Source: Chthoniobacterales bacterium
Lineage (GTDB): Bacteria > Verrucomicrobiota > Verrucomicrobiia > Chthoniobacterales > UBA10450
Direction: 5' to 3'
Assembly: GCA_013821455.1 (NCBI GenBank)
Contig: JACDGS010000027.1
Location: 1-55,718 of the forward strand
DNA: 55,718 bases
Shown here: positions 667 through 53,840 of the stretch, one piece after another
Layout of the letters: each line of letters starts with the position of its first letter
Position numbering within the stretch: the first letter of the stretch is position 1
Position numbers and translations under genes: made by a program
The notes under the pieces: model-generated
What the model was told of the DNA's origin: nothing
What the model saw: only the letters and a program-made list of their open reading frames with translations
The model's database searches: none

Positions 667-667
667 C

Positions 668-10411: not shown

Positions 10412-10445
10412 CGCCCTCTCTCGCGCCGGTGCGCGCAGACCTTCG

Positions 10446-11378
<933 letters not shown>

Positions 11379-14527: not shown

Positions 14528-15877
14528 TTATTCGGACTGTGATTCAAATTCGCCGTCGCGCAGTCGGGTCTTGATTTTCATTCTCGACTCGACTGCCGCG
14601 ACTGAGCGGATGATCTCTCCGCTCTCGTTGGTCGTAATGCTGTAACCTCGCTCGAGCGTCGCAGCCGGTCCCAAAATCCGCAGCATCTCGCTCGCCCGTT
14701 TTTCGCGTTCGCGAGCTTTCGTTAGGCAACGCGCCGCGCTTTCATCTAAGCGGCGCCGCGTGATCGTGAGTTGATTTTGCCGCGCGGCCACCTCGCGTCT
14801 TGGGTTGTGGGCCTTGAGCACAGTCAGCGCACTCGTTAGGCGCGTCGCCGCAAGAGCGCGGCGGCGGTCGAGGTGACGCTGGAGCGCCTCTTTGGCGAGG
14901 TCGATCTGTTGCCGCGTCTCACGCAGACGCTGGCGCAGTTCGCGCGCGAGGGTTTTTTCCGAGAGCGCTCGCAGGCGGCTGCGTGCTTGCAAAATGAAAT
15001 TCCGCCAGCATTTCTCGACGCAGTTTTGCAACTCGCGGAGACGCCGTTCCAGTTCACGGACGTCGGGCACGATCAATTCCGCTGCTGCGCTCGGTGTCGG
15101 TGCGCGCAGATCCGCCACGAAATCGGCGATCGTAAAATCCACCTCATGGCCAACGGCAGAGACCACCGGGATGGGCGAGTGAAAAATGGCGCGAGCGACC
15201 GCTTCCTCGTTGAACTCCCATAAGTCCTCGATGCTCCCGCCGCCACGCGCGAGCACGAGCAGATCGAGCGGCGGCCAGGCATCGTTAGGCGCGCCCAGCT
15301 CGCGGATCGCCGCCGCGATCTCGCTCGCGGCTCCCGCACCTTGCACGCGGACGGGATTGATCAATACCTCAACGCCGGGCGCACGCCGGTGGAGGATGTT
15401 AAGGATGTCGCGAATGACTGCGCCGGTGGGCGAAGTGATCACGCCGATGCGGCGCGGGAATTTCGGCAAGGCGCGTTTCCGCGCGGTCTCGAAAAGGCCT
15501 TCTGCTTCCAGCTTTCGTTTCAGCGCTTCGAATTTTGCCTGGAGCAAGCCAAATCCGCGCGACTGCAGAATCTGCACGTTGAGCTGATACTGTCCGCGCG
15601 CTTCGAAGACCGTGACTTGGCCGTAGATTTGCACCTGCATCCCATCGGTCAGCGGTTTTGGGAAAGGAGGCAGCGTGTTGCGGAAGAGGACGCAACTGAT
15701 CGCGGCGCGCGCGTCCTTCAGAGTGAAATATTGATGGCCCGATGGAAGCAGCCGGTAGTTGGAAATTTCTCCCTGCACCCAGACCGCGCCGAAACGCGTC
15801 TCGAGAATGCCGCGAATCGAACGCGTCAGCTCAGCGACGGTAAGGACTTTCGTTAGGTTAGGGAACAAGTCTGTCAT
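14528..15877 (-). CDS. xseA: Exodeoxyribonuclease VII large subunit
   Basis: 449 residues. With XseB it degrades single-stranded DNA. The N-terminal OB fold is VWVQGEISNYRLLPSGHQYF, followed by the catalytic core (RIGVITSPTGAVIRDI, LARGGGSIEDLWEFNEE, SAVGHEVDFTIADFVAD) and a long coiled-coil C-terminal region rich in Arg/Leu/Glu. The ATG at 15877 falls within the terminal GTCAT of a palindromic element (15873-16047), so that element appears to provide the start codon and the preceding AGG. xseB is not visible nearby. Confidence 0.93.
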   Translation of the reverse strand: MTDLFPNLTKVLTVAELTRSIRGILETRFGAVWVQGEISNYRLLPSGHQYFTLKDARAAISCVLFRNTLPPFPKPLTDGMQVQIYGQVTVFEARGQYQLNVQILQSRGFGLLQAKFEALKRKLEAEGLFETARKRALPKFPRRIGVITSPTGAVIRDILNILHRRAPGVEVLINPVRVQGAGAASEIAAAIRELGAPNDAWPPLDLLVLARGGGSIEDLWEFNEEAVARAIFHSPIPVVSAVGHEVDFTIADFVADLRAPTPSAAAELIVPDVRELERRLRELQNCVEKCWRNFILQARSRLRALSEKTLARELRQRLRETRQQIDLAKEALQRHLDRRRALAATRLTSALTVLKAHNPRREVAARQNQLTITRRRLDESAARCLTKAREREKRASEMLRILGPAATLERGYSITTNESGEIIRSVAAVESRMKIKTRLRDGEFESQSE

Positions 15878-16047: not shown

Positions 16048-16062
16048 GGCGTGACGCATTCG

Positions 16063-17079
16063 TTAGGCCCCAAACAACTCGTTCTGGGCACCGGAACCGC
16101 TGGGCACTTTCAAACCCAGTTTTCGGTAGGCGTTGGGCAGCGCGACACGTCCTTGCGCCGTGCGCTTGATGTAGCCTTCCATGATCAAATACGGCTCGTT
16201 CACTTCCTCCAAAGTCCCCGCTTCTTCTCCCACCGCGACGGCGAGCGAATTCAATCCCACGGGTCCGCCGTTAAACTTGTGAATCAACGTCTCGATGATC
16301 CGCTTATCCCATTCATCGAAGCCGTCGCGATCGATTTCCAGCATCGTTAGGGCGCGATCGGCCAGCTCCGCCGTGATGCGTCCGTCGGCTTTGACCTGCA
16401 CGTAATCGCGCACCCAGCGCAGCAGATTATTCGCCGTGCGCGGCGTCCCGCGCGTGCGGGTGGCAACCTCGGCGGCGCCCTTCGCATCGATCTCGACATT
16501 CAACAGGCCGGCGCTGCGCAGGATGATTTTCTGCATCTCTTCGGCGCTATAGTAATCGAGCCGCGCCGTCATCCCGAAACGCGAGCGCAACGGCGCGCTC
16601 AACATCCCCGAACGAGTCGTCGCGCCGATGAGTGTAAACTTGGGCAGACGCAGTTGAATGTTCCGCGCCTGCGGTCCCTGATCGATGATAATATCGAGTT
16701 TATAATCCTCCATCGCGGGATAGAGATATTCTTCGATCGTTGGTTGGAGCCGATGGATTTCGTCGATGAAAAGGACGTCGCCTCGTTCCAGGCTGGTCAG
16801 CAATCCCGCGAGCTCACCTGCTTTTTCGAGCACAGGTCCGCTGGTGTTTTTGATATTCACGCCCATGGCGTTGGCGATGATATGAGCCAGCGTCGTCTTG
16901 CCTAAACCCGGCGGGCCGCTGAGCAGAATGTGCTCGAGGACATCGCCGCGCATCTTCGCCGCTTGGACCAAAACTTCGATCCGCTCGCAGACCTTTTCCT
17001 GCCCGGTGAATTCGCTGAAGAGCGGCGGCCGCAGCGAGATTTCAAACGCGGGGTCGGGTATCGGGGCGACGGCGGGCAT
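16063..17079 (-). CDS. ruvB: Holliday junction branch-migration ATPase RuvB
   Basis: 338 residues. Hexameric AAA+ motor that with RuvA drives branch migration. Walker [10 protein letters not shown] at 55-63, Walker B LFIDEIHR at about 103-109, sensor 1 IGATTRSG, arginine finger LRSRFG, and the C-terminal winged-helix domain ([15 protein letters not shown]). The start MPAVAP fits the family. The stop TAA is part of a GCCTAACGA copy. xseA follows on the same strand after a palindromic element, grouping two DNA recombination/repair genes. Confidence 0.96.
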
Positions 17080-18508: not shown

Positions 18509-19444
18509 ATGAGTTCCGAAGCTTCCGCGCAAGCTGCCTGGGCGGATGCGCGCCATGGGTGGCAGCAACTTTATGGCGGCTTCGACGAGTTGGGCGTGAG
18601 TCTCGAGTCGCATGATTTCAAGACCAGCCGGCCGTTGGATTGGGGCGAAAGCTTTCGCGCGCGCAGTGTCGAATTTTGCCTCAATCTCGAAGGGCGCGGC
18701 TCGATCGGGAACGGCCGTGGGATCGCTCTTTCCTACCTGCCGAGCAGCTCCGGATATTATGCGGTTGGGAGCGAGCCTTTGCGTGCGACTCGTCAGGCGC
18801 ACGAGCGCCATCGTTTCGTGACGCTGAAATTTTCCCGCGCGCATCTGCAATCGCAACTCGCAGCCACTGAAGGCGACCTCACTCCGGCGATGCGCGAAGC
18901 GGTGTTTCCCACACGAGAGCAAAATGTCGTCTCGCACCCGCATCCGATGTCGGCCGAGCAGCGCGCAATTGTCGCCAGCCTCGCCGCGCCGCCCGTTCCG
19001 AAAGCCGCGCGGATTCTTTGGTACCAAAGCAAGGCAACCGAACTGATGTCGCACTTCCTCTTCGAAGCAAAGGACCCGGAAATGTTTTGCGCGCGCCAAA
19101 AACGCGTGGCGCGCGATCGGGTCGTGCGCGCGCAGGAACTGATCCTGCGCAATCTCGCTGACCCGCCCTCGCTCGAAACGCTCGGGCAGGAAGTTGGCTG
19201 CAGTCCTTTTTATCTCAGCCGGGTTTTTTCGCGTGAAGTTGGCCTAACAATTCCGCAATTTCTGCGCAATGCGCGCATGGAACGAGCGGCCGAGCTGCTC
19301 CGGACCGGCCGCTACAATGTGACCGAAGCCGCGACGGAAGTCGGCTACTCGAGTTTGAGTCATTTCAGTAAGAGCTTCTGCGAAACGATCGGTTGCTGCC
19401 CAGTGCTTTATCCCGCCGCCAGGCACATCGTGCTCGATCGTTAG
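18509..19444 (+). CDS. AraC-family transcriptional regulator
   Basis: 311 residues. The C-terminal ~100 residues contain two helix-turn-helix motifs (LETLGQEVGCSPFYLSRVFS and VTEAATEVGYSSLSHFSKSF), diagnostic of AraC/XylS. The N-terminal ligand domain is not identifiable to substrate. The stop codon TAG is in a TCGTTAGGC copy. purH follows on the same strand after 70 bp, but regulation of purH by it would be a guess. Confidence 0.88.
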   Translation: MSSEASAQAAWADARHGWQQLYGGFDELGVSLESHDFKTSRPLDWGESFRARSVEFCLNLEGRGSIGNGRGIALSYLPSSSGYYAVGSEPLRATRQAHERHRFVTLKFSRAHLQSQLAATEGDLTPAMREAVFPTREQNVVSHPHPMSAEQRAIVASLAAPPVPKAARILWYQSKATELMSHFLFEAKDPEMFCARQKRVARDRVVRAQELILRNLADPPSLETLGQEVGCSPFYLSRVFSREVGLTIPQFLRNARMERAAELLRTGRYNVTEAATEVGYSSLSHFSKSFCETIGCCPVLYPAARHIVLDR

Positions 19445-19514
19445 GCGCTCGTTCGCTATTTTCGCGGATTGACCGACCCGTCGGGCTTTGGTTTTCCTTT
19501 CCTGCGAAGCACCC

Positions 19515-28774: not shown

Positions 28775-29960
28775 ATTACCTCAACGTTCAGTCAGCGGCC
28801 TCGGCGCGCCTCCTCCTCCGCGACGGAGTCAAAAAGGCCCGATCTTCTGGGTCATTCTCGGCTTAGTCCTGATTTTTCTTCTCTTTGCCGGGATTAAGGT
28901 TTTGCAGTTCATGACCATGGGCAAGGCGTTCGCGAAGATGGTTCCGCCGCCCACGACGGTGACGAGCGCGGTAGTGAAGGAAGAGAATTGGCAACCCGCT
29001 CTGCGCGCGGTTGGTTCGATCTCGCCGGTGCAGGGCGCGACGATCAGCGCCGAGCTGGCCGGTCGCGTGGACGAAATTAATTTTGAGTCGGGTGGCCAAG
29101 TGGAAAAGGGACAGCCTTTGCTCAAGCTCGATGTTGCGTCCGAAGAAGCGCAGTTCCGTTCCGCCAAAGCCGAAGCTGCCTTGGCGAAAGCGGAGCTGGA
29201 TCGCTCGACCGACCTGTCCAAGGGCAGCGTCATTTCGAAATCAGAGTTCGACACTGCGCAGGCGAAGTTCGATGCGGCGCAGGCGGCGGTCGATAACATG
29301 CAGGCGATTATCAATAAGAAGGCGATTCGCGCGCCGTTCGCGGGCGTGGCTGGAATTCGCTACGTGAATCCCGGGCAGATGGTCGCGGTGGGCGACAAGC
29401 TTGTAACGCTGCAAACGCTCGACCAGGTCTTCGTCGATTTCTCGCTGCCGCAGGATGAGCTTTCCAAAATCGTGGTGGGCCAGAAGGTCAGTATTACCAC
29501 TGACGCGATTCCCGGCCGGGAGTTTGGCGGTACACTTACGGCGATCAATTCCGCGATCGATACGGCGACCCGCAGCGTGCAGTTGCAGGCAACCCTTGAG
29601 AACAAGGATCACAGTTTGCGCGCGGGGATGTTCGCCCGCGTGCAGCTCCTTCTCCCGGAGAAAAATTTGACGCTCTACATTCCCGCGACCGCGGTGGCTT
29701 ACGCTCCGTTCGGCGATTCGGTTTACGTGATCGAGAAGAAGCAGAACGAGAAAACGAAAAAAGATGAACTCATTTTGCGTCAGCAATTCGTCCGGCTCGG
29801 TGAGACACGCGGCGATTTCGTGGCTGTCACCGGGGGAGTGAAAAAAGGTCAGGAAATTGTGAGCACGGGTGCATTTAAATTGCGCAACGGCATGGACGTG
29901 GCGGTGGATAATACTCTCGCTCCCAAAGCGCAGCTGGCTCCCGCGCCCGACGATACCTAA
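28755..29960 (+). CDS. RND efflux membrane fusion protein (AcrA/MexA type)
   Basis: 401 residues. An N-terminal cytosolic stretch and membrane anchor (FWVILGLVLIFLLFAGIKVL) are followed by the split lipoyl domain (GSISPVQGATISAELAGRVD and ...RAPFAGVAGIRYVNPGQMVA), a coiled-coil hairpin rich in Ala/Lys, and the beta-barrel and membrane-proximal domains. It is anchored by the helix, not by a lipid. It links the RND pump to an outer-membrane channel, which is not encoded here. The stop TAA is part of a CCTAACGA copy, and another copy follows ten bases later. Confidence 0.92.
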   Translation: METVTARLPQRSVSGLGAPPPPRRSQKGPIFWVILGLVLIFLLFAGIKVLQFMTMGKAFAKMVPPPTTVTSAVVKEENWQPALRAVGSISPVQGATISAELAGRVDEINFESGGQVEKGQPLLKLDVASEEAQFRSAKAEAALAKAELDRSTDLSKGSVISKSEFDTAQAKFDAAQAAVDNMQAIINKKAIRAPFAGVAGIRYVNPGQMVAVGDKLVTLQTLDQVFVDFSLPQDELSKIVVGQKVSITTDAIPGREFGGTLTAINSAIDTATRSVQLQATLENKDHSLRAGMFARVQLLLPEKNLTLYIPATAVAYAPFGDSVYVIEKKQNEKTKKDELILRQQFVRLGETRGDFVAVTGGVKKGQEIVSTGAFKLRNGMDVAVDNTLAPKAQLAPAPDDT

Positions 29961-29986
29961 CGAGCGCCTAACGAACTCGCTTCCGC

Positions 29987-33851: not shown

Positions 33852-36626
33852 TCAAGGAAACGTCACAGCGAACTTCTCATTCGAGTAGGCGGAATCGATC
33901 GTTCCATTGGTAGCCCGAACCCTGTAATAATATCGTGTGTTAGGATCAAGGCCCGTGGTGTCGCTATAGCCTTGAACGTTGGCACTCACCTGCGTGATCT
34001 GAGCATAAGTGCCAGCTGCCGTTGTCTTCCGCTCGATCTTGTAGCCTGTCTCAGAGCTTGAGTTATCCGCCCAGGAAATGTCGATCCGATCGGAAGACAT
34101 GGCCGTGGGCGCGAGGGAGGTCGGTGTTGCCAAAAGCGTAGAGCCACTTATGGCGTTGGAAAAAGCAGAGTCTCCCGCCGAGTTGGTAGCAGAGACGCGG
34201 TAGTAGTACACCGTGCCGTCTTTAAGGGCACCATCTTTATCGGTGTAGGAGGTGATGTTAGCCACCGTCGTTTTGATGTCGGCATAGGTTCCTGTCGCAC
34301 CTGTCTTTCGCTGGATTCGGAAACCTGATTCATTATTAGAATTGTCAGTCCAGGAGAGGCTGACTTTGTCTGACAGGAGGGAGGTAATGCCGAGCCCGGA
34401 TGGTGCTGTGGGAAGACCGTGGAGCGTCGTAATCGGTTTCGCATTCGAATAAGCGGAGGTCGCGTTCGCATTGGACGCGCGCACCCTATACCAATACTTG
34501 GTCGCTTCACTAAGACCTGTGTCTGTGAAAGAGGTTGTATTGGCGCTCACCGTTGCAATCGGAGCGTAGTCTGTGTTCGTGATCGGGCTGCGCTCGATCG
34601 TAAAACCGCTTTCCGTCGCCGAGCGATCGGACCACGTCAGGATGACCTGAGATGAGGAGAGAGCCTGTGCGGTCAGGCTGGTGGGGGAATTGAGGACGGT
34701 CGTGGCTGGAAGTTCATTGGAAAAAGGAGAGTCTCCAGCCGAGTTCATGGCACACACCCGATAGTAATACAACGTGCCGTCTTTAAGGGCGCTATCGTTA
34801 TCAGTGTAGGAGGTGATGTTAGCCGCCGTGGTCTTGATGTCGGCATACGTTCCTGTAGCACCTGTTTTTCGCTGGATGCGGAAGCCTGATTCGTTGTCAG
34901 AGCCATCGATCCAGGAGAGGCTGACCTTGTTGGACAGGACGGAGGTAGTCTTGAGCCCGGATGGCGCGGTAGGAAGCTCATTGAGCGTTGTTGTTTGTTT
35001 GGTATTGGAGTAACCGGATGTGGTGTCGGCATTGTATGCGCGCACTCGATACCAGTACTTGGTCCCTTTGCTAAGGCCGGTATCTGTGAATGAGGTCGTG
35101 TTGGCGCTTACCGTTGCAATCGGCGTATAGTCCGTGTCGGTGACCGGGCTTCGCTCGATTGTAAAGCCGGTTTCAGTCGCTGAGCGGTCGGACCAGGTCA
35201 GGAGGATTTGAGAAGAGGAGACGGCCTGTGCCGTCAGGGCGGAGGGAGAAGTCAGAATGGTGGCGGCCGATGTTTCGTTAGAGTAGGTGGAAAGGCCCGC
35301 GGCATTAACCGCTGCGACCCGAAAGTAGTAATCGGTTCCCTCGCTTAGTTTGGTGACCGTGACGCTGGCTACGTTCGCGCCGAAAGTACTCAGAAGTTCA
35401 TAAGTGCCAGTTAGCCCGATTTTAGACTCGACCCGGTATCCGAGCTCATTATTCGCATTGTCATTCCAGGTAAGGACGATCGCCGCGGAGGAACTGGAGG
35501 TCGCATTGGCGCCGTCCGGGGCAGCGGGAAGCGGGGGAGTAGTGGCAAGAAGAGCATTCGCTGTATCGATGACAGAGCTCAGAGCCGGGTTGTTAAGATC
35601 CGACTCATAGATTTCCTGATACTGGGTCCCATAATGTGCGCCGGTCGTGACGGCTTGAAGGAGAACGGCCTCCGGGGAGGCCGGGACGCCACCGTTCATG
35701 CGACCCGTCGTATCGTTAGTTACATTCCAGAGCATTTGTGCCGCCACATTCGGGGTCTGATCGAAGAGGACCTGCCAGTTACCTAATGAGGTAGCATCAA
35801 TTGTTGGATCACCGGTGGTGGCAGAAAGTGAGTTCTTTTGCGTGATAAAGCGCCCGTAGGTCTGGGCCGCGTAATCCACCACTGTTGCGGCGAGATAGTT
35901 CGAGCCTGGATCGAGATCGGAGGAGCCGGAGCCGATCGCGAGGGTGACGTTCTGATTGGGGAATGCAGCCATCGTGGCATCGATGATGAGCTTGCCTGTG
36001 GCTATCATTGTCTCGGTGCTATAGCCCGCTGCCCGCCAGTTCACTATGTCTTCTGGGGTAGAGGGTATGTTCCAGTCACCGGTTATGGCGTTTGCGAACG
36101 AGCAAGCCACGACTTCGATGCTGGAGTGACCAGCGAAATGAGCGCCCGCCGCCGCAATCAGCGCCAGTTTCTTTTCGAGAAAAATCGGATCCCAGAAGAG
36201 AGGCATCGTAACGAGCTGCCCGTAGGTTGGTTGGTATGGGTTTTGATCGATGAATGAGAAGGTCTTGACATTGGGATTTGCCAGAAGCCAGTCGGGTACG
36301 TTCGCACCGCCTGAGTTGATGCGAAGAAGCACTTTCTTTCCATGGCTCTCTGCCTTGGACAGCTCACTGTCCACAGCCGACCAATCATATTCACCCTCGG
36401 TCGTCTCGAAGTCCCTCCCCCAGGAGCCTCCGAGATCGACTCCGACGATTCGCGGATCGTTCAGGATTTGATCTGGGAAGCCATCCTTTTCCGAGGGAGG
36501 CATGGAGAAGATGCCTTTCGGGATCGGCGGAACCGCAGCCTCTCCGAGGCAAATAAGGCAGATCATGAGGAGGCATGCGGTTATCCAGACGTTGAGTTTG
36601 CGGGTTGAGTTTCGGCGTTGGCGCAT
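33852..36626 (-). CDS. Secreted glycoside hydrolase-like protein with six fibronectin type III domains
   Basis: 924 residues from ATG 36626 (GTG 36632 possible). A signal peptide (WITACLLMICLICLGEA) is followed by a TIM-barrel-like domain at about 35-330: GVDLGGSWGRDFETTEGEYD, GKKVLLRINSGGANVPDWLL and a possible acidic catalytic region near SSIEVVACSF, reminiscent of GH42/GH5-type enzymes. Six FN3 repeats of ~90 residues follow (about 385-924), each ending in YYFRV/YYYRV-type strands and TYSN-like motifs. Repeats 2-3 and 4-5 are near copies of one another, indicating a recent two-domain duplication. Probably an extracellular polysaccharide-active or surface-binding protein. It is the only gene of the islet and lacks the genome's repeated motif. 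Confidence 0.75.
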   Translation of the reverse strand: MRQRRNSTRKLNVWITACLLMICLICLGEAAVPPIPKGIFSMPPSEKDGFPDQILNDPRIVGVDLGGSWGRDFETTEGEYDWSAVDSELSKAESHGKKVLLRINSGGANVPDWLLANPNVKTFSFIDQNPYQPTYGQLVTMPLFWDPIFLEKKLALIAAAGAHFAGHSSIEVVACSFANAITGDWNIPSTPEDIVNWRAAGYSTETMIATGKLIIDATMAAFPNQNVTLAIGSGSSDLDPGSNYLAATVVDYAAQTYGRFITQKNSLSATTGDPTIDATSLGNWQVLFDQTPNVAAQMLWNVTNDTTGRMNGGVPASPEAVLLQAVTTGAHYGTQYQEIYESDLNNPALSSVIDTANALLATTPPLPAAPDGANATSSSSAAIVLTWNDNANNELGYRVESKIGLTGTYELLSTFGANVASVTVTKLSEGTDYYFRVAAVNAAGLSTYSNETSAATILTSPSALTAQAVSSSQILLTWSDRSATETGFTIERSPVTDTDYTPIATVSANTTSFTDTGLSKGTKYWYRVRAYNADTTSGYSNTKQTTTLNELPTAPSGLKTTSVLSNKVSLSWIDGSDNESGFRIQRKTGATGTYADIKTTAANITSYTDNDSALKDGTLYYYRVCAMNSAGDSPFSNELPATTVLNSPTSLTAQALSSSQVILTWSDRSATESGFTIERSPITNTDYAPIATVSANTTSFTDTGLSEATKYWYRVRASNANATSAYSNAKPITTLHGLPTAPSGLGITSLLSDKVSLSWTDNSNNESGFRIQRKTGATGTYADIKTTVANITSYTDKDGALKDGTVYYYRVSATNSAGDSAFSNAISGSTLLATPTSLAPTAMSSDRIDISWADNSSSETGYKIERKTTAAGTYAQITQVSANVQGYSDTTGLDPNTRYYYRVRATNGTIDSAYSNEKFAVTFP

Positions 36627-36632
36627 AAACAC

Positions 36633-37087
36633 CGAAATGGAGCAGATGCGATACCAAAAGTATGGTAATTATAAAAGCTATTGTAATTATACTTAAGGGC
36701 TTTCGTTGGTTCCCGGCGCTTCTCGCCACGTAGCCGGGCGGTGGAGGCCGGACTTCATCGCAGCTTCTCGGCGCTCGCTAAGCCGGCTTTGCCGGCTATC
36801 GCTGGTTCCACGCAATAAGGCCTAGCCTTGCTCTTCTCGGCTCAAAACTTTGCCGATCAGAAGCATTGGCGGTGAAGAAGATGGCAGCATCGGTTGGTCT
36901 GATAGTCTCACCTCGCCAATTTCGTTTTTCGAGGCGACAAGGGCGTCATACAGGGGTTTAATTGGCTCAGGGACTGGCTGGCCTTGTGTCCAGCCTGGAT
37001 TCACAGTATCGGTATCAGATTTCAGTATCAAATTGATTCTTTTCGTGCCTAACGGTTCGTCGTAGGTGCCTTGGAGTCAGTCCTTAA
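36633..37087. other. Intergenic right part of the tRNA-Asn islet
   Basis: 455 bp with no gene. An AT-rich stretch (about 36655-36695) upstream of the FN3-protein gene probably holds its promoter. A perfect hairpin AGCCGGC-TTT-GCCGGCT lies at 36781-36797. One partial motif (GCCTAACGG) appears at about 37048. Confidence 0.45.
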
Positions 37088-37159
37088 TCCAGCGTAGCTC
37101 AGTGGTAGAGCGATCGGCTGTTAACCGATTGGTCGTAGGTTCGAATCCTACCGCTGGAG
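37088..37159 (+). tRNA. tRNA-Asn (GTT)
   Basis: Acceptor TCCAGCG / CGCTGGA with discriminator G, D arm GCTCAGTGGTAGAGC, anticodon stem ATCGG/CCGAT with loop CTGTTAA, T arm GTAGGTTCGAATCCTAC. Intact 72-nt gene; its first 35 bp are repeated at 33584-33618. Confidence 0.95.
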
Positions 37160-37439
37160 CCCCTCACGATGCTGCAGCTCTCTCCCGCCGTGAGAATCAT
37201 CCCAGATTTCACATCGCGAGGCGGGTTCGCAAAGTGACGATGTTTTTGAGATCTACAGGCATTGTCCCACGTGTTTTCGGTTGACTTCTGGTCATGGGTG
37301 GCCTGCGGCGTGCACACTTCGGCTTCGCGATGGGAAGAGATGTCCTTGCTGAGCGCGCGTAGCGAAACATGATTTCGATCGAATTCCGGATTTGCTTTGC
37401 TTCGCGCCGCGCCGGCGGCGACGTGCAGTCCTTGTCTCG

Positions 37440-37600
37440 TTAGGCGATTCGCACCATTGACCCAGACGGCGTGATCTGGGCTTCGATTTCGTCGATCGAC
37501 TTTTCACCAAAGGTGAGGCTGGAACTTTCCAAGTCCTTGCGAAGCTGGTCGTGATATTCATAGCGTTTTCCACGCCAGGGCGGGAGGCCTTCAGCAAGGC
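37440..37600 (-). pseudogene. C-terminal fragment of an unidentified gene
   Basis: A minus-strand frame reads GLPPWRGKRYEYHDQLRKDL then ESSSLTFGEKSIDEIEAQIT and ends MVRIA at a TAA that lies in a GCCTAACGA copy. The composition looks like a real protein end, but no start codon is present in frame. I could not name the family. It lies just outside the tRNA-Asn islet. Confidence 0.4.
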
Positions 37601-37685
37601 CCAGGAGACATCGAGGTAAGTGATGTGAAATGGTCAGTCGGGGCGAATTAAGCGGCAGTCTTTTACTCGTTAGGGCGCGCCTCTA

Positions 37686-37928
37686 CTAGAGGCGCGGCCA
37701 TTCCCCAGCGAGCCAGACGAAAACGGAGCGCAGTCGTGCAACATCCGAAACCATTGACGCCAACGCTGGGATTAAGCTTGGAGTGTATTGATAATCCGGG
37801 TGGATCATCACGACGATGTCCGCCCCGGCTGCGAGAGCCAGCCGGTAACATGTTTTTTGGTTGCCGCCATAGCCGCGGTTGAGCGGATGCACTTCCACCT
37901 GCACCGACCAGTCGCTTTCGCGAAGCAC
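37686..37928 (-). pseudogene. Fragment of a family 2 glycosyltransferase
   Basis: [20 protein letters not shown] then [20 protein letters not shown] matches the nucleotide-sugar binding core of GT2 (dolichol-phosphate mannosyltransferase-like) enzymes, with the NRGYGG and HPDYQY segments. The N-terminal start and the catalytic C-terminal part are missing, and the frame after SMV is unrelated. A hydrophobic fragment (GWLGGLLLVVMTLLAW) just upstream is in another frame. Debris of a transferred or decayed gene. Confidence 0.6.
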
Positions 37929-38058
37929 TGCGCTCGACCACTACCTTCTGCCAAGCCAGTAGCGTCATCACAACCAGGAGCAGGCCGCCCAGCCAACCTG
38001 GCTGCCGCAAGAACCACGGCCGCGGAGAAAGCGCTCCTGATTTTCTCTTCTCCGGCTC

Positions 38059-38109
38059 ATTCGTTAGGCGGTGTTTCCTCGATCAATCTGCGCGCTTCTT
38101 GCCTAACGA
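38059..38109. repeat. Inverted pair of the repeated motif, 10-bp arms
   Basis: TTCGTTAGGC (38059-38068) and GCCTAACGAA (38100-38109), 31-nt spacer, overlapping the stop codon of the uracil-DNA glycosylase gene. Possible terminator-like stem with a large loop. Confidence 0.6.
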
Positions 38110-38861
38110 AAATAGGCGCGCTGTTTTTCGCTGATCGGGCGTTCGAGCCGCTCGAGCACGAGGAGCATATCTTCCCAGACCTTTCGCTTCTCCGTGTTGC
38201 TCTGATTTCGAAGCAGGTAGGACGGATGATAGGTGATCATGAGCGGCGTCTCGCGATAGCTGTGCCAGCGGCCGCGGAGCTGCCCCATCGCTTCGCGCTT
38301 TTCCAGTAATCCCTCGACGGCCGTGGCGCCGAGCGCGACGAGGACGCGGGGCTGAATGATCTCGATCTGCTCGGTCAGGTATGGCAGACAGGTCGCCATC
38401 TCGTGAGGCGTAGGCGGTCGATTGCCGGCGCTTCGTCCCGGCGTGTCAGGCCGGCACTTGAGGACGTTCGCGATATAAACATCGTCACGGCTGAAGCCCA
38501 TGGCGGAAATGATTTTAGTCAGCAGTTGACCGGCGCGCCCGACGAACGGCTCGCCTAAGCGGTCTTCATCGGCGCCGGGTGCTTCACCGATGAACATCAG
38601 TTCGGCATCGTAATTTCCAACTCCGAAAACGGTCTGAGTGCGCGACTGCGCGAGGTGAGGGCACCGCAGGCAAGTGGAAACACGCGCGCGCAGCGGCTCG
38701 AGCCGTCCCCCTTTGTTACTGGAATCCAGGTGAACCGGGACTGTCGTTAGGCGAAGCCGGGCGAGCGCCGCGATACTCGCGCGCGGACGATGGTCGCTCT
38801 CCTGCTCAAGCCGCTCGAGCGATCCGAGGACTTGGTCGAGAGCGCGCAAAAATTCACTCAT
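38103..38861 (-). CDS. Family 4 uracil-DNA glycosylase
   Basis: 252 residues from MSEFLRALDQVLGSL at 38861; a longer frame reaches 39044 but carries no family sequence. It excises uracil from DNA. LRARVSTCLRCPHL and the later Cys residue (VLKCRP) are Fe-S cluster ligands. FGVGNYDAELMFIGEAPGAD is motif A with catalytic residues, and YIANVLKCRPDTPG and the final ITYHPSYLLRN (motif B) complete it. The TAG stop is in a TCGTTAGGC copy. It is divergent from queA with about 60 bp between starts. Confidence 0.9.
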   Translation of the reverse strand: MSEFLRALDQVLGSLERLEQESDHRPRASIAALARLRLTTVPVHLDSSNKGGRLEPLRARVSTCLRCPHLAQSRTQTVFGVGNYDAELMFIGEAPGADEDRLGEPFVGRAGQLLTKIISAMGFSRDDVYIANVLKCRPDTPGRSAGNRPPTPHEMATCLPYLTEQIEIIQPRVLVALGATAVEGLLEKREAMGQLRGRWHSYRETPLMITYHPSYLLRNQSNTEKRKVWEDMLLVLERLERPISEKQRAYFR

Positions 38862-38920
38862 GCTGCGAAGCACTTTGAAGGTTTTGCGCGGCCCGGCAAT
38901 TCCTTTGATGATGTTCGGGA

Positions 38921-39904
38921 ATGAGCACGCTCCTGGGGGATTATGAGTTCGACCTGCCGGAGGATTTGATCGCGCAACGCCCGCTGCCGCAGCGCGAAGA
39001 CTCGCGCATGATGGTCGTCGATCGCGCGGGCGGGACGATCGCACATCGGCATTTTGCGGAGTTGCCGGAGTTCGTTAGGCCGAAGGAGTTGCTGGTTTTG
39101 AACGATACGCGGGTGCTTCCGGCGCGCCGCTTTTCCGACGACGGAGCGATCGAGTTTTTGTTTCTCGAACAAGTGAGCGAGCTGAGCTGGAAGTGCCTCG
39201 TAAAACCGGGACGAAAAATGCGCGTCGGCGCCGTCGTACTCCTCAATGGAATTCGCGGCTGGGTGGAAAAGATTTTCGAAGAAGGTGAGAGACTCGTTCG
39301 GTTCGAGCGCGCGATCGATCCGTATCGCGGGGGCCAGATTCCGTTGCCGCCCTACCTCAATCGCGCAGCCGACGCGGAGGATGCGGCGCGCTATCAGACC
39401 GTCTATGCCAGCGTACCCGGAGCGGTCGCGGCGCCAACGGCGGGTTTGCACTTCACGCCGGAAATCCTCGAGCGGCTGCCACACACATTTGTGACTCTAC
39501 ATGTCGGCACGGGAACTTTTCGCCCCGTGCAAAGTGAAACGATAGAAGAGCATCGCATGCATGCGGAGCGTTACGCGATCACGGAAGAGGCCGCGAGCGC
39601 GATCAACGCTGCGGAACATCTCCTCGCGGTCGGAACCACTTCCGTCCGCGTGCTGGAAGCGGCCGCGCGGCCTAACGACGGCCGGCTCGTCGCGCAGGAA
39701 GGCGCAACCGACATCTTCATTTATCCGCCCTACCAATTTAGGGCCGTCGATCGGCTGCTGACGAATTTCCATCTCCCGCGTTCGACTTTGCTCATGTTGA
39801 TCAGCGCGTTTGCCGGACGGGAATTGATCTTGCGGGCCTACACCGAGGCGGTACGGGAACGCTATCGCTTTTACAGCTACGGCGATTGCATGCTGATCCT
39901 CTAA
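38921..39904 (+). CDS. queA: S-adenosylmethionine:tRNA ribosyltransferase-isomerase
   Basis: 327 residues. It adds the cyclopentenediol precursor from SAM to preQ1 in tRNA during queuosine synthesis. YEFDLPEDLIAQRPLPQRED is the start signature. LVLNDTRVLPARR, VAAPTAGLHFTPE and HVGTGTFRPVQSE are active-site segments, and NFHLPRSTLLMLISAFAG is near the end. Full length. No tgt or queC-E genes nearby. Confidence 0.95.
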   Translation: MSTLLGDYEFDLPEDLIAQRPLPQREDSRMMVVDRAGGTIAHRHFAELPEFVRPKELLVLNDTRVLPARRFSDDGAIEFLFLEQVSELSWKCLVKPGRKMRVGAVVLLNGIRGWVEKIFEEGERLVRFERAIDPYRGGQIPLPPYLNRAADAEDAARYQTVYASVPGAVAAPTAGLHFTPEILERLPHTFVTLHVGTGTFRPVQSETIEEHRMHAERYAITEEAASAINAAEHLLAVGTTSVRVLEAAARPNDGRLVAQEGATDIFIYPPYQFRAVDRLLTNFHLPRSTLLMLISAFAGRELILRAYTEAVRERYRFYSYGDCMLIL

Positions 39905-40056
39905 GCCCCTGCGACGTTTGGCCCTCCTCCCGTTCGAGTTTTCTCTACACCGTTGGCTGTGCGCGAGCGGAGGGGGAGGATGCTTAACGCTTGAGCGCGC
40001 CTGAAAGCTGGCTTGCCTTGGCCAGGGAACGCACGAGCCTAACGAACAGACTTCTC

Positions 40057-40458
40057 ATGCCTAACGACGACGCCGAAAATTCCGAGCAGCCGAAAGGCGA
40101 ACTGGTCATCCGCACGATCGCGATGCCGGCCGACACCAACCCCAACGGCGATATCTTTGGCGGTTGGCTGATGGCGCAGATGGATTTGGGCAGCGGCATT
40201 CTCGCCTCGAAAATGGCTAAGACCCGCGTGGTCACCGTCGCGGTGGAGGGCATGTCATTTCTCCAGCCGGTGAAGGTGGGCGATACGGTGGCGTGTTACG
40301 CCTGGGTCGAATCGGTCGGCCGCACCTCGATGAAGATTCCCGTCGAAGTGTGGGTGCAACGTTACATGCACACCGAGCAGACGCGCGTCACGCGCGCGGT
40401 CTTCACTTACGTCGCGGTCGATCCGTCAGGCCGTCCCGTGCCCGTGGAGCGTCTTTAG
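40057..40458 (+). CDS. Acyl-CoA thioesterase, YciA-like hotdog fold
   Basis: 133 residues from ATG 40057 (MPNDDAEN); a TTG at 39991 gives a longer N-terminus. ADTNPNGDIFGGWLMAQMDL contains the catalytic Asn-Gly-Asp motif of the 4HBT/YciA group, and FLQPVKVGDTVACYA is the second hotdog strand. It hydrolyses acyl-CoA. A motif copy overlaps the start codon (ATGCCTAACGA). Confidence 0.88.
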   Translation: MPNDDAENSEQPKGELVIRTIAMPADTNPNGDIFGGWLMAQMDLGSGILASKMAKTRVVTVAVEGMSFLQPVKVGDTVACYAWVESVGRTSMKIPVEVWVQRYMHTEQTRVTRAVFTYVAVDPSGRPVPVERL

Positions 40459-40470
40459 TTCGTTAGGCAA

Positions 40471-40719
40471 CTACGGAACATTTTCCGCCACGGCTTGCGG
40501 TCCGGAAGACTCCATCGGCTCGGTTGTTGTCACAGGCATCTGGGGATGGTGGGAATGGAACAGCTTTTGTTGAGCGACACGGTTCCGGCTCGATTTGCGG
40601 ATATATTTTTCGTAAGCCGCCTGCTGGCGCCCGCTTTTCGTAAAACTGGAACAGCCGGTTAAGAAGAGGAAGGCCAGAGCAATCGCGACGCTGCCTGGTC
40701 GAGAAAAGTTCGTGTTCAA
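40471..40719 (-). CDS. Small lipoprotein
   Basis: 82 residues from a TTG at 40719, which overlaps the stop of the upstream cNMP-binding gene (TTGA). Hydrophobic segment VAIALAFLFLTGCSS with a lipobox LTGC places it as a lipoprotein. The mature part is basic (KSGRQQAAYEKYIRKSSRNR) and ends in a Thr/Pro/Glu tail. No family recognised; the overlap suggests coupled expression with the upstream gene. Confidence 0.6.
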   Translation of the reverse strand: MNTNFSRPGSVAIALAFLFLTGCSSFTKSGRQQAAYEKYIRKSSRNRVAQQKLFHSHHPQMPVTTTEPMESSGPQAVAENVP

Positions 40720-41744
40720 CTCGCCTCCATCTTCGCGAGCGCGACGGAATTCTCGATCGTGACGAGACCGTTGCGAACCATTTCCTCGACCGCTTTGTAG
40801 ATTTTTAGATCGCAGAAATTGTTCGCGCGACAAAGCTCGCCCAGTTTAGCGGGCTGGTTGTAAATGTGTTGCCAGATCGCTTCCGCCACGCGGCGCAAGT
40901 CTGCCAGTGCGGCGTTGTCCCAGAGCAGGTTGACCTCTTTACGGCGCACTTTGGCCGCATCGTTAGGCAGACGTTTGCGCACATCGTCGAACTCGTCGCG
41001 CATGTGGATGGCGCTGATGAGCAGTTCATCAGCCTGGTGCTTCAGCGCGCTTTCCTTGCCTGGGGATTTTCGCTCGGGCCCGTTGGCAAATGAAAAAGTT
41101 GCGGCCTGGTCGTCGTGCAGAAAAAGCTGCCAGAACGCTTCTTCGCCGGTGAGATGTTCGAAGCGACCCCAGCGCGGAGTGCCGCTTGCGAAAAAGAATT
41201 CGGAGATTTTTTCCCCCTCGTTGTTCGCGATCGTGAGGAGCCCGGTTTGTTTCGAATGCAGGATAGTTTGGTAAATCGTGACCACGTCGAAATTGGCGAG
41301 GCTGCCGGTGAGTTCGAGCGCGGGCGCCTGCGAGCGCACGAGTTCCGAAGTTTGAAAAAGACGGGTGGCCAGCCTCTCGCAGAGGAAAAGAAAAAACGAC
41401 GGCACCTTGCGGAGCAGTTCCGGGAAATCGCTGCGGCGAAAGCATTGCACACTCAGCTGGGCACGAGCTTGCGCGGAGTGATCCCGCGGCTGGCCCCGCA
41501 AAGGGCCGGCGGCGCCGAAGAGGTCGCCCCGCGAGAGGACGATTTCCGGAATGCCCGAACGCCTTCCGGCTGAGAGTTCCACCACGCCGCGATTGATGAT
41601 GAAGAACTCTTCCGCTTCGTCGCCGGCTGAGTAGATGCGCTCGCCCTCGACAAAATGCCTCACCTGCGAGAGTGCGCCGATGGCCTTGAGCTCAATCGGG
41701 CGCAGCGAAGTGCAATAGGCGAAGAAAGCGCGATGCTTCACCAT
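40716..41744 (-). CDS. Cyclic-nucleotide-binding domain plus DUF4388 protein
   Basis: 342 residues from MVKHRAFFAYCTSLRPIELK at 41744 (a longer frame to 41813 is Cys-rich and unlikely). The N-terminal cNMP-binding beta roll (FVEGERIYSAGDEAEEFFII, GVVELSAGR, LSRGDLFGAAGPLRG) is followed at about 150-260 by a DUF4388 domain (GSLANFDVVTIYQTILHSKQ TGLLTI, FASGTPRWGRF). The C-terminal helical region (VRRKEVNLLWDNAA...) may be winged helix. DUF4388 proteins are linked with gliding/social motility regulators in myxobacteria and similar phyla. Likely a sensory protein rather than a classical CRP, as no clear HTH recognition helix is seen. Confidence 0.8.
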   Translation of the reverse strand: MVKHRAFFAYCTSLRPIELKAIGALSQVRHFVEGERIYSAGDEAEEFFIINRGVVELSAGRRSGIPEIVLSRGDLFGAAGPLRGQPRDHSAQARAQLSVQCFRRSDFPELLRKVPSFFLFLCERLATRLFQTSELVRSQAPALELTGSLANFDVVTIYQTILHSKQTGLLTIANNEGEKISEFFFASGTPRWGRFEHLTGEEAFWQLFLHDDQAATFSFANGPERKSPGKESALKHQADELLISAIHMRDEFDDVRKRLPNDAAKVRRKEVNLLWDNAALADLRRVAEAIWQHIYNQPAKLGELCRANNFCDLKIYKAVEEMVRNGLVTIENSVALAKMEAS

Positions 41745-41841
41745 CGCCTGTATAGCAAGACCCGTGCAGCGCTTGCAGAAAATGCATGAGCATGTGCCAA
41801 CCGCGCCTTCCAAGCAGCTCGCGTAACGGCTAATTCTCTCT

Positions 41842-43035
41842 ATGCCGGGCTTCGCTTATCTTTTTGAAAGGTTTCCTTCGTTTACGCAGACTTTCTGCTA
41901 TCGCGAGGTCGCTGAGCTGCGAAGGCAGGGTCTCGACTTTTCGATTTTTGCCCTGCGTTCTCCAAAGGACGAGCCGCCGCAGGATTGGGATCCGGCCATC
42001 GTCGCACGCGTGCAAAATCTTCCGGCTGAAGACGCGCTCGTGCCCGAGATCGATCGCTTGGCGCGTAAAACCCAACTCCCGGCCAAGGTGACGAGCGAGC
42101 TGAAAAGGTGGGGCCGGGAGAGCGATTTTTTGCGGCTTTACCAGGCGGCGTGGCTCGGGCCGCGCCTGCAGCAGCTTGGAGTCCGGCATCTGCACGCGCA
42201 CTTCGCTGGGATGGCCGCACGGACCGCTTACTGGGTCGAGCGGTTTTGGAATATCGGGTTCAGTTTTACCGCGCACGCGAACGATGTTTTTGCTCCCAAG
42301 CCGTTTGTCATTTCGTTAGGCAAAATCATCGGCGCGGCGCGCGCGGTCGTGGCGGTGAGCGATTTCGAATTGGAATATCTGCGCGCAAAATTCCCCGCCG
42401 ACGCCGCGAAAATGCTGCGGGTTTACAACGGCGTAGAGCTAGATCGTTTTGCGCCGCTTAATCCTCCTAACTCGACCTCGACGATCGTTTCCGTTGGCCG
42501 ACTGATTGAGAAGAAAGGCTTCAACGATTTGATCGAAGCCTGCCGGCTCCTCGCCGGGCGGCGAGTCAATTTCCACTGTGAAATTATTGGCGAAGGTCCG
42601 CTCGAAGGGACGCTGCGCGCCGAAATCGAAACCGCTGGCCTAACGAAAAGTGTCGTGCTCACCGGACCGTTGCCGCAGAGCGAGGTGATTCGGCGGTTGT
42701 CGCGCAGCGCCGTTTTCGCGTTGCCCTGTGTGGCCGAAGCCGGGGGGGGAATGGACAACTTGCCGACCGTGATCATGGAGGCAATGGCGGCGGGCCTGCC
42801 GGTGGTTTCGACTGCGTTGGCTGGTGTGCCCGAGATGGTGCTCGAGGGCGTCACAGGTCTTTTAATTCCAGAGCGTCAGCCCGCGGCTTTGAGCGAAGCG
42901 CTCGCGCGCGTTCTGCTGCAGCCGGAGTTGGCGCATTCGTTAGGCGCGGCCGGGCGGGAGCGTGCGGCTGCACGTTTCGCCGTCGAACGAAACGTCCGGG
43001 AACTGCGCGCGTTCTTTGAGAAGTGCGCCGGCTAA
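41842..43035 (+). CDS. Family 4 glycosyltransferase
   Basis: 397 residues. GT-B fold. The N-terminal part opens FAYLFERFPSFTQTFCYREV, with HLHAHFAGMAARTAYWVERF for the acceptor side. The C-terminal donor-binding part has VSVGRLIEKKGFNDLIEACR, IIGEGPLEGTLRAEIE and the EX7E motif region MDNLPTVIMEAMAAGLPVV. Similar to exopolysaccharide or colanic-acid-type transferases (WcaL/AmsK-like). Divergent from the cNMP-binding gene. DUF547 follows after 40 bp. Confidence 0.9.
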   Translation: MPGFAYLFERFPSFTQTFCYREVAELRRQGLDFSIFALRSPKDEPPQDWDPAIVARVQNLPAEDALVPEIDRLARKTQLPAKVTSELKRWGRESDFLRLYQAAWLGPRLQQLGVRHLHAHFAGMAARTAYWVERFWNIGFSFTAHANDVFAPKPFVISLGKIIGAARAVVAVSDFELEYLRAKFPADAAKMLRVYNGVELDRFAPLNPPNSTSTIVSVGRLIEKKGFNDLIEACRLLAGRRVNFHCEIIGEGPLEGTLRAEIETAGLTKSVVLTGPLPQSEVIRRLSRSAVFALPCVAEAGGGMDNLPTVIMEAMAAGLPVVSTALAGVPEMVLEGVTGLLIPERQPAALSEALARVLLQPELAHSLGAAGRERAAARFAVERNVRELRAFFEKCAG

Positions 43036-43075
43036 GGAAGGTTGCGCCCGCGGCTTCGCGACGGCAACGTGCCCG

Positions 43076-43816
43076 ATGCGAATCCTTTCATCGTTAGGCA
43101 TTTGTTTTGCGCTTCTCCTCATCCCCGCAACCTTCGTGCGGGCTGAGAATTCTCTGCCGTGGGTCGAAACCTATAACGGCCTTCTCGGCAAATACGTCAC
43201 CGCCGACGGTGTTCGCTACGCGGCTTGGAAAGCAAATTCGGCCGACATGAAAGCGATCCAGGAGGTGGTGGACGGCATTGGCAGCCAGAAAGTCGACGGT
43301 CTAAGCAAACAAGAACAGCTCGCTTTTTACCTCAACGCTTACAACGCCTGGATCCTGCACGAAGCGCTTGGCAAATATCCAACCAAGAGCGTGAAAGATG
43401 TGCTCTTCCGTTTTTTCCTCGGCCAGCGCATCAAAGTCGCGGGCGAGCCGATGAGCTTTAACCATCTCGAGAAAGAAATCATTCGTCCGAAGTTCGGCGA
43501 GCCGCGCGTGCACTTCGCCTTGAACTGCGCGAGTCAGAGTTGTCCGCCGCTGAATCCGGAAGCGTTTCGCGCCGAGAAACTCGATGCGCAGTTAGAGAAA
43601 CTAGCGGTCGCTTTCGTGAACTCGCGCAAAGGCGTGGACTATTCGCTGGAGAAAAAAAGCGTCGCGCTCTCGGCCATTTTCAAGTGGTACAAGGACGACT
43701 TCGATCACGCCGGCGGCGTCCTGGCGTTTATCAACAAGCGGCGGCACGAGCCTTTGCCTAACGACGCTCAAATCGGCTATCAGGACTACGACTGGTCGTT
43801 GAACGTAGCGAAGTAG
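43076..43816 (+). CDS. DUF547 exported protein
   Basis: 246 residues from MRILSSLGICFALLLIPATF at 43076 with a signal peptide. LAFYLNAYNAWILHEALGKY and RVHFALNCASQSCPPLNPEA are the defining DUF547 blocks, containing the conserved Cys pair. Periplasmic; function unknown, often near glycosyltransferases or redox proteins. Confidence 0.85.
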   Translation: MRILSSLGICFALLLIPATFVRAENSLPWVETYNGLLGKYVTADGVRYAAWKANSADMKAIQEVVDGIGSQKVDGLSKQEQLAFYLNAYNAWILHEALGKYPTKSVKDVLFRFFLGQRIKVAGEPMSFNHLEKEIIRPKFGEPRVHFALNCASQSCPPLNPEAFRAEKLDAQLEKLAVAFVNSRKGVDYSLEKKSVALSAIFKWYKDDFDHAGGVLAFINKRRHEPLPNDAQIGYQDYDWSLNVAK

Positions 43817-43835
43817 CTCGCCCCGGGAGCCTGCC

Positions 43836-44900: not shown

Positions 44901-44911
44901 AGAGCTAGAGT

Positions 44912-45021
44912 GTCATCCTGAGCCGCGCAGCCGGCGAAGGACCCCGCCAGCGTATTTGGGCGTCGTTAGGCAAATGAACTCGGAACACGCTTGCGAGGTT
45001 CCTCGCGGCGCTCGCGATGAC
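44912..45021. repeat. Palindromic interspersed element, copy D
   Basis: Left end GTCATCCTGAGCC, right end GCTCGCGATGAC; arms more diverged than in the other copies. A GTCGTTAGGC motif copy lies in its centre. Located between zwf and opcA. Confidence 0.7.
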
Positions 45022-45054
45022 AAAAAGTTGCGTGCCACTTTTCATCGAACGTTT

Positions 45055-46593: not shown

Positions 46594-46731
46594 GTTTTTG
46601 TCGCTCAAGCGATGCGCACCTTACGCAGATTCGAGAACGGGCGAAAGCGGCGAGGGGAAATCCTCGGCTTTCGAAGGGGCGTGTGTCGCGCCGCCTTTTG
46701 TCAAGATCGCGAGAGTGGTGGCCGGTGAGCA

Positions 46732-46764
46732 TCGTTAGGCAAGTTGCTGCGATTTGCCTAACGA
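46732..46764. terminator. Inverted pair of the repeated motif, 11-bp perfect stem
   Basis: TCGTTAGGCAA (46732-46742) and TTGCCTAACGA (46754-46764) with an 11-nt loop, between the glyA fusion gene end (46789) and zwf. Best example of the motif acting as a terminator-like hairpin; no T-tract. Confidence 0.7.
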
Positions 46765-46788
46765 CGCGCTCTCGACAGGCGAAGTCAC

Positions 46789-48654: not shown

Positions 48655-48695
48655 GTCAACGCGCGCGCCCGTGGCCTAACGAATCGGGGGAAATT

Positions 48696-49661: not shown

Positions 49662-49709
49662 TGGCGAGCGATTGACAAATCGGCCGCACGCTTTCCAGTT
49701 GTAAACCTT

Positions 49710-50381: not shown

Positions 50382-50457
50382 GGTCGCGACCCGAGACCGG
50401 AGTGAGGCGGCGCGACTAACGAGTTGCGACACCTCCTTCGCGCGGCGACATTGCAGG

Positions 50458-51726
50458 GTGAGCGCAAACCTCATCTCCAGCGGCACGACCGCGCGTAACA
50501 AGGTTAACCTCCGCACGCCGGAGGTGATGACGGCGGTTCAGGACCAGGTGGAAGCGCATTATCGCAGCGACATCGTCGATAAGGTGCGCCGCACCGGTAG
50601 TATTCTTTCGGTCGGGGGAGTTACCGTTAGGTTGGCGAAACAGTTTGGTTTTTGTTACGGGGTCGAGCGCGCGATCGACCTGGCCTACGCCGCGCGCAAG
50701 GTCTTCGCTGATCGCCGGCTCTTTATCGTCGGCGAGATTATTCATAACCCGGAAGTCAACGAACAGATATCCTCGTTAGGTATCAAGAATCTTACTGGTA
50801 CTAACAAGCAGGCCGATATTTCCGATCTAAAGCCGGAAGACGTTGTTATTCTGCCGGCTTTCGGAACCGAGGTATCTATCCTCCAACAAATCAAGGATCG
50901 CGGTTGCCAGATTGTCGATACCACTTGTGGCGACGTCATGAGTGTCTGGAAGAGAGTGCGCAAATACGCGAGCGAATCTGCTACCTCCATTATCCACGGC
51001 AAAGCCGAGCACGAAGAGACCAAGGCCACCAGTTCGCGCGCGCTTGGCGATGGCAAAGGACATTACCTCGTAGTTCTTACCCTGGCTGATACTGACTATG
51101 TCTGTTCCTATATTCGACATGGCGGAAACAAGGAGGAATTTTTGGATAAGTTTCGCGGCGCTTATTCCGCCGGTTTCGATCCCGATGTGCACCTGCGCAC
51201 GATAGGAGTAGCTAACCAGACTACGATGTTGCGTGGTGAGACCGAAGAAGTGCAACGGCGTATCCAAAAAGCGGTCGCCGATCGCGACGGCGCAGAGTTA
51301 GCGAGCCGGAACTTTCGCTTCTTCGACACCATTTGTGGCGCGACGCAAGAACGGCAGGATGCCTTGCGCGAGTTATTGGAGGTAAAGATGGACCTCCTTC
51401 TGGTGGTAGGCGGTTATAACAGCTCGAATACCTCTCACCTGGCCGAGATGGGCGAAGAAAAACTCCCTACTTACTTTGTTCTCAATGCCAGCCGGCTTAT
51501 CTCGGAGCAAGAAATCCGGCATTACGATTTGCACCAGCGCGGAGAGGTTGTCGCGCATAACTGGCTGCCGCCAAACCCGATCGTCGTCGGCATTACCGCA
51601 GGCGCTTCCTGCCCGAATAATCTGATCGAAGAGACACTTATCCGCCTCTTCCAATTGCGCGGGATCAATGAGGCACAACTCATCGCCGAAGCGAACGGCG
51701 TATCCGGGAAGTCCTTTACTCGTTAG
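50458..51726 (+). CDS. ispH: 4-hydroxy-3-methylbut-2-enyl diphosphate reductase
   Basis: 422 residues from GTG 50458. Last step of the MEP isoprenoid pathway, producing IPP and DMAPP. The three Fe-S cysteines are in FGFCYGVERAI, DTTCGDVMS and GASCPNNLIE. TKATSS and SSNTSHLAE are substrate-binding parts. The N-terminus is longer by ~50 residues than E. coli IspH. The TAG stop is inside a TCGTTAGGC copy. Confidence 0.95.
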   Translation: MSANLISSGTTARNKVNLRTPEVMTAVQDQVEAHYRSDIVDKVRRTGSILSVGGVTVRLAKQFGFCYGVERAIDLAYAARKVFADRRLFIVGEIIHNPEVNEQISSLGIKNLTGTNKQADISDLKPEDVVILPAFGTEVSILQQIKDRGCQIVDTTCGDVMSVWKRVRKYASESATSIIHGKAEHEETKATSSRALGDGKGHYLVVLTLADTDYVCSYIRHGGNKEEFLDKFRGAYSAGFDPDVHLRTIGVANQTTMLRGETEEVQRRIQKAVADRDGAELASRNFRFFDTICGATQERQDALRELLEVKMDLLLVVGGYNSSNTSHLAEMGEEKLPTYFVLNASRLISEQEIRHYDLHQRGEVVAHNWLPPNPIVVGITAGASCPNNLIEETLIRLFQLRGINEAQLIAEANGVSGKSFTR

Positions 51727-51740
51727 GCAGATTTCCACGG

Positions 51741-52274: not shown

Positions 52275-52353
52275 GAGTCACCTACTCCTGGCGCGCACGG
52301 CAAGCCAGCTTGTGTATTGTGGCGGGAGTTGGCTGCTGTGACTTATTGGAAGC

Positions 52354-53826: not shown

Positions 53827-53840
53827 AAGGAAAGTAGGAA

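Follow-up and report, generated by a model that had tools for sequence, protein, structure and literature searches.

Two proteobacterial families are established cases of DNA uptake guided by sequence tags. In the parts of PMC1939737 drawn on here, the words of Haemophilus and Neisseria fall steeply from perfect to mismatched copies, and the relevant sections of PMC7371117 describe Neisseria mobile elements as poor in uptake words. The window, the whole 55,718-base stretch of DNA analysed in this study, contains 88 copies of CCTAACG or its complement CGTTAGG, compared with a mean of 4.33 in 100 shuffles. The core of this word is the 9-mer GCCTAACGA, a genome-wide word at the level of DNA which, by analogy with the proteobacterial words, is probably the preferred word (dialect) of a natural-transformation DNA uptake system in one Chthoniobacterales family. 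If so, it would represent a third, unrelated case of tagged DNA uptake, in uncultured soil Verrucomicrobiota. Searches of one open-access library found no paper on such words in Verrucomicrobiota, and the exact word did not occur in any of the papers listed for it.

Abundance and retention of the word

RuvB relatives place the genome to which the window belongs in the Chthoniobacterales. This 4.30 Mb genome contains 4605 copies of GCCTAACGA and 62 copies of the reversed word, which served as the control (this and random 9-mers were the 9-mers used for comparison). The copies are evenly divided between the strands (2306 and 2299). A genome sample of 61 pieces, comprising 927,407 of the 4,302,014 bases and including the window, was used for detailed counts; 17,503 of its bases are N and seven pieces are mostly N. 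In this sample the density is 1110 per Mb, compared with 1 per Mb in loci from outside the family. The 25 genomes of the family contain 60 to 4605 copies each, and 14 genomes from elsewhere in the order contain 1 to 19. Across the class, 278 genomes outside the family were surveyed; four of them have more than 60 copies, with a maximum of 133. The word is confined to one Chthoniobacterales family.

Over-representation is 140-fold for perfect copies, 3.2-fold at one mismatch and 0.83-fold at two, a fall similar to that of the proteobacterial words. Distances between copies in the sample follow a nearly exponential distribution, in which short and long gaps are somewhat over-represented. Non-coding copies favour TTTnGCCTAACGAGTAAAGGA and exhibit an A/T-richer 3' flank (GCCTAACGAGTAAAGGA). 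Close direct pairs are over-represented in our sample at 10–11 and 21–25 bases, approximately one and two turns of the helix. No such enrichment was seen for inverted pairs (20 and 26, 46 in total, vs 78 direct pairs within 60 bases), which we count against an uptake word, although inverted pairs do not define an uptake sequence. A division of genes into quintiles revealed no clear concentration of copies towards the gene termini. Separately, a mild excess of 61–133 copies was observed in G153, G148, G166 and G291, which belong to an unrelated family (f35, genus g98); the 20 kb inspected there contain no copy.

Being short, very abundant and family-specific, the word could also be a signal for recombination or segregation, as Chi and KOPS are. 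However, the G-rich strand carries 688 copies in the sample and the C-rich strand 664, with r = 0.01 across 47 stretches, so that the strand bias of such a signal is not seen, per-contig GC skew being a weak proxy of replication direction. This explanation is therefore very doubtful. The abundance, the restriction to the family, the strand parity and the missing link to GC skew are all counted in favour of an uptake word.

Copies within genes use all four stop-free frames (273, 258, 240 and 175), which indicates that it is the DNA, and no peptide, that is kept. When same-genus genomes were aligned, 62 of 143 copies had a perfect counterpart in the relative, compared with 319 of 2579 random 9-mers, and the flank identity at copies is 0.715 and 0.724, compared with 0.772 elsewhere. 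In the reverse comparison, 62 of 75 copies of same-genus relatives are perfect in this genome, as are seven of eight copies in low-copy relatives. An insertion spanning the word was found in one of 17 gapped cases. Gaps within three bases accompany 20% of copies and 7% of random 9-mers; we read them as a reflection of placement in variable stretches, and small insertions or deletions may have a role at word copies. A mobile element with flanks was rejected, as no flank is conserved beyond about 8 bases. The word appears, from these alignments, to be gained in place by substitution and not as an insertion element.

Of the proteins encoded in seven long motif-free stretches, ten were scanned. 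Three of the seven (Table 1) are apparently acquired islands, from which the word is missing. Two others, which encode an NHL/Ig-domain protein and a TPR/aspartyl-protease protein, are without mobile character, and stretches that are not clearly acquired DNA count against an uptake word. Competence genes were detected in all genomes tested (ComEC in 12 of 12, DprA and PilT each in 13 of 13). They also occur in genomes without the word (G026 and G019) and are not discriminating. In an uptake system, a pilus-borne receptor would favour DNA carrying GCCTAACGA. Incoming copies would recombine with the chromosome, and chance near-copies at tolerant places would be converted to the perfect word and kept there. 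We infer that uptake and recombination maintain the word.

Stop codons within the word

Both orientations of the word contain a stop codon (TAA in CCTAACG and TAG in CGTTAGG), as the earlier note on this DNA had stated, and the six genes it named as ending inside copies, at 10446, 16063, 19444, 29960, 38103 and 51726, agree with the sequence letter for letter (Table 1). Pfam upholds the family names of all six, that of cysE only as far as hexapeptide transferase. For a further fragment, said to end at 37440, the TAA does lie inside a copy, but no gene was called there. With a home-made gene caller, whose starts are rough and whose ends, being stop codons, are safe unless the gene is false, 8 of 49 called genes in the window end in the word. 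Two of these (8629–8886, plus strand, and 54820–55152, minus strand) are doubtful, low-scoring calls that were retained in the counts; the reliable count is 6 of about 47. Elsewhere in the sample, 79 of 712 genes are word-ended, and the window is not different from this (p = 0.25). A separate repeat of approximately 40–60 bases was also observed in the window, at 15864–15930 and about 16000–16050, with many 85–95% matches in related genomes.

Table 1. Coordinates of word copies, motif-free stretches and integron arrays, and genomes rich in the second word.
Feature	Location	Strand	Description
GCCTAACGA copy	window 38101..38109	+	minus-strand TAG (38105-38103) is the stop of uracil-DNA glycosylase
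Second GCCTAACGA copy	window 38061..38069	-	35 bases past the uracil-DNA glycosylase stop, inverted orientation
Copy	window 10443..10451	-	TAA ends cysE-like gene (10446-11378 -)
Copy	window 16060..16068	-	TAA ends ruvB (16063-17079 -)
Copy	window 19438..19446	-	complement TAG ends AraC-type regulator (18509-19444 +)
Variant copy ACCTAACGA	window 29955..29963	+	TAA ends HlyD-type fusion protein (28755-29960 +)
Perfect copy	window 29966-29974		11 bases after the ACCTAACGA variant copy
Copy	window 51720..51728	-	complement TAG ends ispH (LytB) (50458-51726 +); extended flank GAGTAAAGGACT
Copy	window 37437..37445	-	at the end (37440) of the noted fragment, where no gene was called
Copy	window 15282..15290	-	within xseA; perfect in many relatives, some with few copies genome-wide
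Motif-free stretch	L043 3175-16225		phage-tail-like cluster (baseplate-J/AAA)
Motif-free stretch	L059 1-9917		LanM-type lantibiotic cluster
Motif-free stretch	L034 7614-15028		MmeI-type restriction enzyme
Integron cassette array	L207 (G000:C81) 1-2550		five cassettes beside integrase begin [AG][CT]CTAACGAG
Integron cassette array	L224 (G019:C76)		ten of ten with recognisable left end begin [AG][CT]CTAACGAG
Integron cassette arrays	L179, L181 (G026)		attC sites begin with the word's letters
TGTCGATCTT-rich family genomes	G008, G009, G012, G014-G017, G020, G021, G023		

Two readings of these ends had been offered, namely tolerated accumulation at gene ends and active coupling to termination, together with a check against random placement. 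Of the 761 genes called in the 0.93 Mb sample, 87 (11.4%) have their stop within the word, as TAA in 59 genes and as TAG in 28. This is a very large excess over random positions. Compared with stop trinucleotides in the vicinity of gene ends, no excess exists. For each of the three frames, the control was the first stop in the non-coding DNA immediately beyond a gene (shadow stop), which lies in the word in 36 of 360, 50 of 392 and 54 of 377 cases (pooled 140 of 1129, 12.4%; p = 0.56 against the real stops). For genes with a score above 60, the word contains 32 of 294 real and 62 of 439 shadow stops. Within 25 bases past the stop, the word density is 4.8 per kb; further out it is approximately 2–3 per kb. 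The denser placement beside gene ends bears out tolerated accumulation, whereas the equality of real and shadow stops speaks against coupling.

TAA and TAG are scarce in this G+C-rich genome, and a large proportion of their occurrences therefore falls within the word. TAA lies in the word at 59 of 275 stops, compared with 258 of 1411 and 272 of 2502 occurrences in the other two sense frames and 324 of 3268 in non-coding DNA; the corresponding values for TAG are 28 of 215, 240 of 1404, 174 of 891 and 324 of 2662. TAA stops are somewhat above their controls, and TAG stops are at or below theirs. The sole departure from parity is the TAA:TAG ratio, which is 59:28 at real and 74:66 at shadow stops (p = 0.03). 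This TAA surplus would be explained if GCC-TAA-CGA fixes one codon before the stop and xxT-CGT-TAG (from TCG-TTA-GGC) fixes more.

Active coupling of the word to translation or transcription termination would account for the share of genes that end in it, for its highest density just past gene ends and for the TAA-type excess, and the inverted pair at 38103 can fold. However, downstream stops that no gene uses fall within the word just as frequently as real stops do, and 1028 of 1352 copies in the sample are within genes. Inverted pairs are not enriched, and the pair at 38103 consists of 10-bp arms and a 33-base loop with no U-tract (z = -1.87). Terminator-like sites in 36001–55718 number 28, compared with 26.8 in shuffles, and word copies do not show the G+C stem, short loop and U-tract of a transcription terminator. 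The second word of the family, described below, is of similar density and is free of stop codons in every frame, which shows that such words cannot exist for the purpose of supplying stops. By the comparison that the earlier note itself had proposed, coupling is ruled out, since shadow stops match real stops, and we regard it as highly improbable. The overlap with stop codons is a by-product of a word that contains a stop.

The word can create a stop in two of the six frames, and its insertion could have truncated genes whose shortened forms were tolerated. However, the AraC gene has the same stop residue in 22 of 22 relatives, inside the word in three and elsewhere mostly as TGA. RuvB relatives mostly end within five residues, by TGA, TAG or TAA, with one relative ending 32 residues later and one 8 earlier; among the ruvB orthologues listed with near-identical ends, none has its stop inside the word. 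The length of gene and relative agrees within 3 residues in 28 of 29 TAG-type pairs, 82 of 103 TAA-type pairs and 200 of 244 pairs of other genes. Among 132 pairs with a word-ended gene, which represent 22 genes only and are dominated by ruvB and AraC, the relative exceeds the gene by more than 3 residues in 5, compared with 33 of 244 other pairs; the ortholog sets are uneven, with RuvB loci dominating. Word-ended genes stop where their orthologues stop, including at TGA without the word, which indicates that the word formed over pre-existing stops. These lengths, together with the single insertion in 17 gapped alignments, speak against truncation by word insertion, which is hardly credible.

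One third of the six frames is barred inside genes because TAA or TAG would be read. The barred frames are usable only at the gene's own last codon, where the stop already gives three of the nine letters. With the last codon as the sole place for the stop frames, approximately one gene in nine ends in the word as a by-product; for annotation, this explains why such a share of genes has its stop codon in common with a repeat. Perfect retention, gain in place, the motif-free islands, shadow-stop parity and the presence of comEC, dprA and pilT are further points counted in favour of uptake.

A second word and the ends of integron attC sites

Other genera of the family have a second word, TGTCGATCTT, with the fuller form ATTGTCGATCTTG, that is also genome-wide and is unrelated to the first. 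It exceeds 200 copies in 10 of the 25 family genomes (213–4653; Table 1), does not exceed 65 in the other 15 and numbers 1–20 in 14 genomes from outside the family. In 0.20 Mb of G014, the second word is pristine (305 perfect and 77 one-mismatch copies) and the first is worn (112 and 153, compared with 1010 and 628 in the source genome of the window). The non-coding share is 9 of 112 for the first word, which is thus almost restricted to genes there, and 57 of 305 for the second (p = 0.009). This pattern looks like the replacement of one dialect by another, and the second word would have replaced the first in sister genera. Two unrelated words in one family exceed the one-letter dialects of the Neisseriaceae, which is counted against an uptake word. 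Another frequent word, TTCGTCATT, was observed in one relative (L065), with 17 copies of TTCGTCAT in 21 kb.

A DNA methylase or a repair system could also keep the word in place, which has been argued for the cyanobacterial word HIP1 and its alternates. Such maintenance would fit the presence of two words, since HIP1 is replaced by other words in some genomes according to the portion of Elhai (PMC4390886) used here. However, HIP words are palindromic and neither GCCTAACGA nor TGTCGATCTT is, and we consider this explanation unlikely.

GCCTAACGA is identical to the left end, the first nine letters, of integron attC sites in this bacterial class. The attC arrays in the family and in other families of the class share the left end [AG][CT]CTAACGA(G). 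The sites of C81 in the source genome of the window and those of G019 were found by their right ends, and G019 has one further right end without a left end in range; those from G056, G201, G038, G073 and G029 were found via the word and cannot show the generality of the left end. Clustered copies in G026 were considered as transferred family DNA, which was rejected, the copies of C7 and C21 being attC sites and those of C2 not. A plain uptake-sequence story does not predict the attC-end match, which counts against it.

Scattered copies could be integron relics or products, that is, half attC sites left by cassette movement. Apart from the shared nine letters, 37 of 199 non-coding copies outside attC-bearing loci have the extra attC letters GAGnAnA(A/G)GA. 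An integron integrase scores over the cut-off in 15 of 16 genomes, and the exception, G016, has 60 word copies. However, GTTAGGC at 40–140 bases revealed no matching right half, either for non-coding copies (12 downstream vs 17 upstream) or for coding copies (49 vs 81). Copies within genes arise in place and not by insertion, and G019 combines an integrase and attC arrays with hardly any copies (60). Scattered copies do not show the paired R''/L'' and L'/R' boxes of a folded attC site, and true attC sites are few. Arrays were rejected as the source of most copies, since the scattered ones lack both a right half and an array, and such an origin is improbable.

A Neisseria element with an attP matched to uptake words is described in a section of PMC7371117. 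The attC left end may have become the family's uptake word and been driven genome-wide from class integron cassettes, with cassette capture and transformation favouring the same DNA before some genera switched to the second word; we put this forward as a speculative scenario with a low but real probability. If the uptake interpretation is true, the two unrelated words, G014 between them and the integron link make the origin and switching of tags testable by comparison.

Comparison with described systems

The left end common to the attC sites of the family and of other families of the class is shared by the word, but its scattered copies, unlike attC sites, are without a right half and without an array. 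The likeness to cyanobacterial HIP1 and its alternates, as far as the cited part of PMC4390886 extends, lies in extremely frequent words that are exchangeable in sister genomes; HIPs differ in being palindromes tied to methylases.

The Pasteurellaceae USS, as presented in part of PMC2346458, has a 9-bp core with an A/T-richer 3' flank, as the non-coding copies do here, two words in different subclades and an unequal use of orientations in genes. No clear concentration towards gene termini is seen here in the quintiles, in contrast to that system.

A further likeness is to the DUS of the Neisseriaceae, which has dialects and the receptor ComP. In the excerpts of PMC3630211 and PMC7371117 consulted, both systems have a 9–12-mer at approximately one copy per kb on both strands and bound to a family. 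Perfect copies are far above one-letter variants, are located in tolerant regions and are missing from mobile elements, and one reading frame contains a stop. In contrast to the DUS, GCCTAACGA occurs in an unrelated phylum, has an unrelated sequence and equals an attC end. Close pairs are direct here, whereas inverted pairs are common at Neisseria terminators (PMC3630211, in the section cited), and the Chthoniobacterales family holds two unrelated words.
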